Assembly: GCF_009674585.1 (NCBI RefSeq)
Contig: NZ_WKJP01000001.1
Coordinates: forward strand, 806,001 to 870,000
Reading direction: 5' to 3'
DNA length: 64,000 bases
Origin: Haloferax marinisediminis
GTDB lineage: Archaea > Halobacteriota > Halobacteria > Halobacteriales > Haloferacaceae
The notes under the pieces were generated by a model. It did not search any database, was not told where the DNA came from, and saw nothing but the letters and a program-made list of their open reading frames with translations. The translations under genes and the position numbers were made by a program. Positions 14,190-33,391 of this stretch are shown in pieces; position 1 is the first letter of the stretch, and every line of letters begins with the position of its first letter.

Positions 14190-14613
14190 CGTCGGCAGAG
14201 AGAGCCCAGTTCCCGTGCCCGAAACGGGCATGAGGAAAGTCCCCCCACCGTCTGGACAGGTGACCGGGCGCAAGCCCGGAGTCGGAGACGGCTGGCTCTG
14301 GAACAGAAACGACACCCCTCGACCCGACCGATGACGCGCGGTCGTGGCCGCATGGCCGCTACCGACGTACCGGGATTCCTCTCGTGTACGTGCGAACCGA
14401 CCCGTAAGGGAAGGGAGATAACCCGCAGAGGGAAGACGGTCGAGAATGGATGGAACGGTGAATCCTCACCGGTGCAAGTCCGCGCCGTGAAGGTAGTCCG
14501 GACGGCGCGTCGGGTTCGCCCGGCGTGCCCCTGGGTTTCGACCCGGGAAGGACGCGGACGCTTAGCCGAATGCTGGGACGAACAGAAGGGGGCTTACTCC
14601 TCTCAGCCGATTT
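14190..14613 (+). ncRNA. rnpB: RNase P RNA (archaeal type A)
   Basis: Catalytic RNA that trims the 5' leader of precursor tRNAs. Helix P1 forms between gtcggc (14191-14196) and gccgat near 14607-14612. Universally conserved blocks are present: gaggaaagtcc (near 14232) of CR-I, ggtgcaagtccgcgcc (near 14473) and acagaagggggcttac (14582-14597) of CR-V. The length of about 424 nt fits known haloarchaeal RNase P RNAs. The ends are set by the P1 pairing and could be off by a few bases. No protein frame in this stretch is credible. Confidence 0.93.
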
Positions 14614-30828: not shown

Positions 30829-31500
30829 ATGACGAACGACGAACGCCGACGCACCCGTCGGGTACCAGCCGACCGCCGAGAACCGGTCGGTCAGCCTGTC
30901 GTCCGTGGCGACCCCGCCGTCACTGGTGACCGTGCCCGCGAGGCAGTTGGGTTCGACCCCGACGACCCCGCCAGTGTCGAGGAGGCTGCCCGTACAGTTC
31001 GGTCGTTCGCCGAGTCCTCGGCGGGCGACGACCACGTCTTCATGCTCCGCGGCGCTGCCGCATGTGCTGCCCTCGTCCGTGGGGTCGGGTCGTACAAACA
31101 GGCCGCAGAGATGGCCGGTGGCGACGTCTCTGTCTCGTTTATCCGCAAGTGGGCCCGCGTCCACGACCTGCCGCAGTCGGTCCGCCGGCACGTCGCTCGC
31201 GGAAATATCGCTCCGACAGCGGCCAAACACATCGCTCGCGTCTCTGGAGACGCACGACTCCACCTCGCGTGGGCGACACTGGACGGCGACCTCACGGTTC
31301 GAGAGGTTCGTCGCCTCGCGAGCGAGGTCAACAACGGAACGCCAGTGACCGAGGCGCTCGACGACCACGGTGTCGCAGTCGGAACGTTAGACGTGTCGCT
31401 GCCGCCCGAACTCTACCTCGAACTTCGTCGGCGCGCGTCGCTGAACGACACCGAACCGGGAACCGTCGTGGCCGAGGCGCTGGACACCTACTTCGACTGA
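30829..31500 (+). CDS. DUF7119 family protein with ParB-like HTH
   Basis: Haloarchaeal protein of 223 residues. An Arg-rich N-terminus leads to a region VGSYKQAAEMAGGDVSVSFI, then RKWARVHDLPQSVRRHVARG and IAPTAAKHIARV, which resembles the helix-turn-helix of ParB/KorB DNA-binding proteins. The C-terminal LDVSLPPELYLELRRRASLN followed by VVAEALDTYFD looks like a ribbon-helix-helix. So it probably binds DNA with two modules. No ParA neighbour is present, and the role is unknown. The gene ends inside the convergent M20 peptidase gene (13-bp overlap). Confidence 0.78.
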   Translation: MTNDERRRTRRVPADRREPVGQPVVRGDPAVTGDRAREAVGFDPDDPASVEEAARTVRSFAESSAGDDHVFMLRGAAACAALVRGVGSYKQAAEMAGGDVSVSFIRKWARVHDLPQSVRRHVARGNIAPTAAKHIARVSGDARLHLAWATLDGDLTVREVRRLASEVNNGTPVTEALDDHGVAVGTLDVSLPPELYLELRRRASLNDTEPGTVVAEALDTYFD

Positions 31501-32816: not shown

Positions 32817-32890
<74 letters not shown>

Positions 32891-33011
32891 TTTCTACATC
32901 CGTGAGCGACAGCGAGCGGTGCTGGGGAGATAACGTGTTCTTACCCGATGATAGCCACTGTATACTCAATACGGTAGCAGCGAATGTGTGTATCAGCGGT
33001 CGACTCCACAC

Positions 33012-33099
33012 GAAAGGGTCGCTCAGCCTGGTAGAGCATCCACCCCTGCGGTGGGTGGCCTGAAAAATGGCCTCGATGGTTCGAATCCATCCCCTTTCG
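33012..33099 (+). tRNA. tRNA-like gene of atypical structure, anticodon unclear
   Basis: An 88-nt element with tRNA ends: acceptor gaaaggg/ccctttc, D-stem gctc/gagc and T-arm gatgg-ttcgaat-ccatc. The anticodon part fits two ways. A 6-bp stem ccaccc/gggtgg around loop ctgcggt gives anticodon GCG (Arg) with U33. A 5-bp stem tccac/gtggg would give CTG without U33. An extra ggcc-tgaaaaat-ggcc hairpin sits where the variable loop belongs. This is unusual for Arg or Gln, and it may be a pseudogene. The tRNA call itself is sound; the identity is not. Confidence 0.55.
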
Positions 33100-33391
33100 C
33101 TCACACTGTTTTTCTGTCCAGTCTACGTTCGCTGCACGGCGACGAATCATCTCTCGTTGGAAAGTGACGAGTCTATCGAGACCACGCCGTTCCACGGTCG
33201 CGGGGCAATGTAGCGGCGTGGTCAGTCCTGACTACCCGAATATCGGAGAGTCGCTACTATTCAGTCTGGATTGGTTGTTTCAGAACGCTGTCTCACTGTG
33301 TTCGTGACCTGCTGGCGTGGTCGTGTGTGCCGAAAGAGGAAATTCGAGTACCACCATACTCAGCACCCTAACCCGGCACACTGTGGCACCA
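33100..33391. other. Gene-free stretch after the tRNA pair
   Basis: No open frame with haloarchaeal codon use, no RNA fold and no repeat was recognised here. Base composition is less GC-biased than in neighbouring genes. Short frames on the plus strand (for example 33271 onward) have atypical codons and overlap the micro-gene at 33392 on the opposite strand. Confidence 0.4.

Follow-up and report, generated by a model that had tools for sequence, protein, structure and literature searches.

A probable gene for a non-decoding tRNA-like RNA in Haloferax marinisediminis and its relatives across Halobacteria

RNAs that take the shape of a tRNA but act outside translation have so far been known singly. 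The tRNA-like domains of tmRNA and of YrlA, a bacterial Y RNA, consist of a tRNA acceptor and T arm and do no decoding. For instance, tRNAOther, a pseudo-tRNA of B. cereus, is reported to have a job outside translation, and in that account it retains a Trp anticodon, forms part of a longer RNA and belongs to the B. cereus group (PMC3399842). A long variable arm and a longer anticodon stem are described for tRNA-Sec, the allo-tRNAs and further non-canonical tRNAs, which keep an anticodon and decode (PMC7609411). Within Haloferax itself, the t-elements of H. volcanii are described as tRNA-like structures that serve as substrates for tRNase Z and RNase P (PMC4326828, PMC7714728), the 5S t-element being a processing signal in the rRNA operon; the RNA genes given for the H. 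volcanii genome include 51 tRNAs, RNase P RNA and 7S RNA (PMC2841640).

Here we describe a locus to set beside these systems. The window—the whole stretch of 64,000 nucleotides of H. marinisediminis DNA that was analyzed—carries at positions 33012–33099 what is, judged from its sequence, very probably a gene for a non-decoding tRNA-like RNA. Taken as a whole, the locus is best explained as a stand-alone, non-decoding tRNA mimic, a reading that we consider likely. The likeness to tRNAOther would be that of a tRNA-shaped RNA acting outside translation, with shape alone compared here; unlike tRNAOther, the haloarchaeal family lacks an anticodon, carries its own promoter-like box and extends over an archaeal class. 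From tmRNA and YrlA it differs in having neither a Y module nor a tag frame, and Ro60 (TROVE) does not track the RNA. Members share the long variable arm and lengthened stem of tRNA-Sec and allo-tRNAs, but lack their anticodon and have an acceptor/T helix of 7/5. And whereas the 5S t-element belongs to an operon, the family genes are free-standing and conserved in sequence across many genera. The literature that we searched, in which few subscription journals were covered, gave no description of the family, and the annotation tools applied here either miss its members or assign them dozens of false anticodons. In 2012 Holzle et al. reportedly listed more tRNA-like candidates in H. volcanii, selected ones of which are said not to have been cleaved in vitro; those elements may overlap with the family.

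Fold and sequence place an 88-nt cloverleaf exactly at 33012–33099 on the forward strand, where a tRNA-like gene of that length had originally been predicted. It comprises an acceptor stem of 7 bp, a D arm of 4 bp with GG and a T arm of 5 bp with a UUCGAAU loop, in keeping with the earlier view that these three arms are sound, and the fold also bears out the GGCC/GGCC hairpin proposed for the variable region. The features of the locus are as follows.

33012–33099, forward strand: gene of 88 nt for a tRNA-like RNA of type A, with G as discriminator and CCA not encoded (Rfam, ARAGORN, fold, homologues).
33012–33018, forward strand: 5' strand of the acceptor stem, GAAAGGG, pairing with 33092–33098 (fold).
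33021–33037, forward strand: D arm, GCUC-AGCCUGGUA-GAGC (fold; conserved in all aligned members).
33038–33056, forward strand: hairpin replacing the anticodon arm, 7 bp with loop CCUGC (33045–33049), no anticodon (fold, covariation).
33057–33072, forward strand: variable arm hairpin, GGCC-UGAAAAAU-GGCC (fold; different or absent in other members).
33075–33091, forward strand: T arm, 5 bp, straight in type A and bulged in type B (fold).
33092–33099, forward strand: 3' strand of the acceptor stem, CCCUUUC, with discriminator G (fold).
32950–33011, forward strand: upstream block, probable promoter with a short leader (alignment of four Haloferax type A loci; AT enrichment).
33109–33113, forward strand: T-run 3' of the gene, possible terminator (sequence); TTTT lies within 35 nt past the gene in only 2 of the 8 type A loci.
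32817–32890, forward strand: ordinary tRNA-Lys(UUU), a neighbor and not part of the RNA (ARAGORN; Rfam, 71 bits).

The tRNA-Lys(UUU) gene ends 121 nt before the tRNA-like gene, on the same strand. With the Rfam tRNA model (RF00005) the window gene scores 40.4 bits, where the gathering score is 29, and the same model matches the loci of five of six other members (39.1–44.2 bits; L095 is unmatched). A fast Rfam scan of the whole window did not pick up the cloverleaf, and ARAGORN labels it tRNA-Arg(gcg). Its folding-energy z-score is −3.51, with 1 of 200 dinucleotide shuffles folding equally well. As a candidate class II tRNA (Leu/Ser), type A shows the variable arm and lacks the anticodon loop. 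The setting of the gene is a peptidase M20 gene on one side and ETF-quinone oxidoreductase genes on the other. Elsewhere in the window lie an archaeal RNase P RNA gene (14194–14608, forward strand; 170.9 bits) and a gene for a DUF7119 protein with a ParB-type helix-turn-helix (30829–31500, forward strand).

In the anticodon position, the minimum-energy arm of the window gene has 7 bp (AUCCACC/GGUGGGU) and a 5-nt loop, CCUGC, and in a homologue CCACC/GGUGG has become CCAUC/GAUGG, a compensatory pair change that fixes the register with the 5-nt loop. The original prediction left the anticodon undecided between GCG and CTG; in light of this change, both of those registers are wrong. In the type A test the standard register was defined by 1 nt at position 26. 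So placed, each of the 8 distinct type A sequences forms 5 of 5 bp, yet U33 is found in none of them, and the would-be anticodons run CTG, TCG, TTG, TCG, TCG, CCG, CGG and CGC. The GCG register requires a 3-nt junction, and its stem and U33 are satisfied in 2 of the 8. Ordinary tRNAs of both identities were sought elsewhere in the genome, as had been suggested, and both were found: a tRNA-Arg(GCG) at G000:C1:203582-203654 and a tRNA-Gln(CTG) at C1:653365-653437.

The same holds across the family. We scored a standard anticodon arm as a junction of 0–2 nt, a stem of 4 bp or more, U33 and a purine at 37, and compared 155 distinct pattern-matching family sequences with the intronless ordinary tRNA entries of the H. 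marinisediminis genome. Such an arm occurs in 0 of 155 family sequences and in 49 of 49 ordinary tRNAs, the family counts for this arm, as for the T stem and discriminator below, being confined to strict-pattern members, so that L053, L056 and L068, among others, are not counted. When junctions are widened to 0–5 nt (at least 4 bp), 5 of the 155 form a standard arm. ARAGORN calls a tRNA in 102 of the 155, under 63 different labels, so that no constant decoding identity is found among these orthologues; this is the outcome expected of an arm without an anticodon. By fold and comparison, the place of the anticodon arm is taken by a hairpin whose length and sequence vary, whose pairing is conserved and which has no anticodon.

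How far the family extends was traced in steps. The window gene, searched against 59 relatives, has homologues in six other genomes (95, 91, 94, 86, 74 and 75% identity), while 10 further genomes of the 59 gave short tRNA-like or chance matches only; type A was found in 4 of 15 Haloferax genomes. A covariance model from 6 sequences (R1), run over 391 genomes of the class, gave many relatives with the acceptor GGAAGGG/CCCUUCC, mixed with real tRNA-Ser. Since R1 could not tell weaker family members from tRNA-Ser, a second model (R2) was built from 34 diverse sequences. In one test on 65 loci, R2 scores ran from 69 bits (the window gene) to 87 bits for members with the strict pattern and from 51 to 60 bits for three divergent members, with ordinary tRNAs reaching 48.9 bits at most. 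At a presence cut-off of E 1e-7 or better, R2 matches 201 of 391 Halobacteria genomes and 51 of 86 genera, a count that includes five rows weaker than 1e-9 near tRNA-Ser scores (G231, G298, G044, G180 and G338), among which G231 alone was inspected. Its locus, L068:1501-1589 in genus g14, holds an apparent divergent member at 51.3 bits with R2; the other listed genomes of that genus are R2-negative. Presence is patchy (201 of 391 genomes), with no R2 match in two Haloferax genomes, G008 and G009.

The strict pattern occurs in 180 of the 391 class genomes and 43 of 86 genera, and its reversed control in none among the matches listed for the same genomes. In named contigs it marks at least 120 stretches, nearly all from Halobacteria; among the matches listed are Haloferax, Haloarcula, Natrinema, Natrialba, Halorussus, Haladaptatus, Halobellus, Halorientalis and others. 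Most genomes carry one copy and some carry two, H. marinisediminis being an example of the latter: its second copy, a long type B2 of 99 nt (C1:1705052-1705150, reverse strand; L297:8001-8099), lies directly downstream of sdhA. A phylum-wide search gave matches in 18 genomes outside the class, among 196, and of the 32 genomes matched phylum-wide, 18 come from a single other family. Four genes from three such out-of-class genomes, inspected as candidate members, are ordinary tRNA-Ser. Within the genomes sampled, the family is known only from Halobacteria. Among 54 tRNA entries of the H. marinisediminis genome, some counted twice, no clear candidate for a parent tRNA was seen.

The 155 distinct sequences divide into 8 of type A, 54 of B1, 56 of long B2 and 37 of short B2, and their variation falls unevenly over the molecule. 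In an alignment of 34 sequences (748 cells), 93.0% of cells are paired and 54 are changed on both sides, against a shuffled mean of 17.1 and with 0 of 500 shuffles reaching as high. Relatedness could inflate the shuffle control; a control with slid structures, which retains relatedness, agrees, giving at most 24 double-changed cells. The replaced stem in the anticodon position changes on both sides at 6 of 6 scored pairs among the 34 members, and the second pair of the acceptor stem covaries as A-U/G-C. Acceptor, D arm with GG and T loop, which make up the tRNA body, hardly vary across the family. Elsewhere the members diverge: loop sizes of the replaced arm vary, many long members have no variable arm, and 114 of the 155 carry G as discriminator against 41 with A (A in 39 of the 56 long B2). 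Because the discriminator varies and the variable arm is often missing, no conserved binding face remains apart from the body. A one-nucleotide bulge in the 5' strand of the T stem is needed to form 5 bp in 147 of 147 type B sequences and in 0 of 8 of type A.

Genomic settings are fixed within lineages and differ between them. By rough gene calls, on flanks as short as 1.5 kb at some loci, B1 adjoins a helicase gene (Helicase_C_2) in 45 of 51 sequences, always on the opposite strand, and 40 of 52 long B2 sequences follow sdhA on its own strand. Between −35 and −26, where archaeal TATA boxes lie, the AT content goes up (to 0.77–0.79 in B1). Four Haloferax type A loci, which put the gene at three different places in four genomes, share an upstream block of about 60 nt, whereas their outer flanks are unrelated. 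A tRNA-Gly(UCC) lies a few nucleotides 3' of the type A gene, on the same strand, in 4 of 8 sequences (L290, L291, L292 and L293), a tandem that suggests that the two are transcribed together and that the ends are processed as in a tRNA. Surface-glycan regions contain the short B2 and some of the type A copies, with sugar epimerase or glycosyltransferase flanks in G030, G324, G055, G337 and G032; the type A copies of G005 and G010, like the window's own, have non-glycan genes nearest. One member (L334:7001-7090) sits on the 120-kb plasmid pHOS100 of Halorientalis sp. IM1011, near orc1/cdc6 and in a glycosyltransferase region. That plasmid was the single match of a B2 member searched against plasmids; a B1 member matched no plasmid, the B2 member matched no phage, the window gene gave 0 matches in phage and plasmid nucleotide sets, and no viral contig matched the pattern.

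Partners were sought by co-occurrence in a hand-picked panel of 26 carrier and 26 non-carrier genomes. Ro60 (TROVE) proteins show no association with the RNA (3 of 26 carriers, 4 of 26 non-carriers, none in H. marinisediminis itself). In all, Ro60-like TROVE proteins are present in 7 of 52 haloarchaeal genomes (G025, G037, G050, G053, G070, G100 and G391). Nor does either of the other two protein families screened, an MprF-type synthase domain and lantibiotic dehydratase (see below), track the RNA, which counts against the preferred reading.

Several other readings of the locus can be weighed against these data. A decayed tRNA gene, one of the original proposals, would account for the absence of a usable anticodon and for the bulged T stem of type B, but decay is ruled out by the compensatory changes in the replaced arm and by the presence of the gene in 51 of 86 genera, and the fixed positions also speak against it; we give it next to no credence. 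An intron-bearing pre-tRNA with an odd splice site, proposed alongside it, could appeal to the occurrence of archaeal introns at odd places (PMC8450103) and to the extra sequence of long B2, yet the type A arm is only 2 nt longer than a standard anticodon arm, the GGCC hairpin lacks a flanking bulge-helix-bulge in folds judged by eye, and no register across the family yields an anticodon. With nothing to splice in the shortest members and no shared register with a standard anticodon arm, this reading too is judged barely conceivable. It is highly improbable that the RNA is a translating class II tRNA (Arg, Gln or mis-sense), a role that the cloverleaf, the ARAGORN label and the long variable arm would fit: none of the 8 type A sequences has U33 when read in the standard register, loop sizes vary and the genome has its ordinary Arg(GCG) and Gln(CTG) tRNAs, and we reject it. 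The halovirus HF2, for which a tRNA-like attP gene is described (PMC8707807), sets a precedent for the attachment site of an integrative element, and the three places of type A in four Haloferax genomes would suit one; such a role is very improbable given that the arms covary, that neither phages nor viral contigs gave a match and that no second partial copy of either gene end was found within the window.

A cis-acting role is harder to dismiss, although we think it quite unlikely. The gene would then be a t-element, a tRNA-shaped signal at which RNase P or tRNase Z cuts so as to trim a neighboring transcript, for which Haloferax offers described cases such as that upstream of the H. volcanii 5S rRNA (PMC4326828). 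The same-strand position of long B2 after sdhA and the type A tandem with tRNA-Gly suit this role, but B1 stands opposite its helicase neighbor, neighbors change between lineages, the genes have their own promoter-like box and a covarying hairpin would be superfluous for a processing signal. Also unlikely is an aminoacyl carrier working off the ribosome, charged by an anticodon-blind synthetase (SerRS, for example) and donating its amino acid to a glycan, lipid or peptide. The conserved acceptor end fits such a carrier, as do G73 and the long variable arm of type A and many short members, both described as SerRS identity elements (PMC7609411), and surface-glycan clusters contain several of the type A and short B2 copies, with one more in the glycosyltransferase region of pHOS100. 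Against it, the discriminator of long B2 is mostly A and its variable arm often absent, most copies lie outside glycan clusters, an MprF-type synthase domain exceeded the cut-off in 0 of 52 panel genomes, and lantibiotic dehydratase was found in 0 of 52, by a search that gave no match in any control either and is therefore uninformative.

The preferred reading remains a stand-alone, non-decoding tRNA mimic. A tRNA body has been kept while its codon-reading end has been replaced by a plain hairpin, and the job of the family is therefore very probably something other than protein synthesis. Of the three guesses originally offered, it is the tRNA-like RNA with another job that gains support. The RNA would be transcribed from its own putative promoter or together with a neighboring tRNA, its ends would be cut by RNase P and tRNase Z, and after CCA addition it would fold into an L shape. 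Constraint is strongest on the parts seen by RNase P, tRNase Z, the CCA-adding enzyme and elbow binders, and the decoding part is gone, which leads us to read the RNA as a protein-binding mimic. In essence, it may bind one or more elbow-recognizing proteins as a decoy, scaffold or regulator, and we put mimicry through the acceptor-T-D elbow at roughly even chances. The T-stem bulge of type B falls where elongation factor 1A grips tRNA, and by that argument type B would stay out of translation; the T stem of type A is straight, so this exclusion does not reach the window's own gene. A more speculative prospect, which we hold only tentatively, is that these are free-standing tRNAs without the genetic code, kept across the clade, with a matured and perhaps aminoacylated body and a replaced decoding end. 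The type B bulge would bar the elongation factor, and the RNAs would be devoted to a reaction away from the ribosome or to a control circuit.

The family occurs in Haloferax and Haloarcula, both genetically tractable, so that a direct test by deletion or tagging is possible. If the reading is true, about half of the haloarchaeal genomes sampled would carry a natural case of a tRNA body cleanly parted from decoding.
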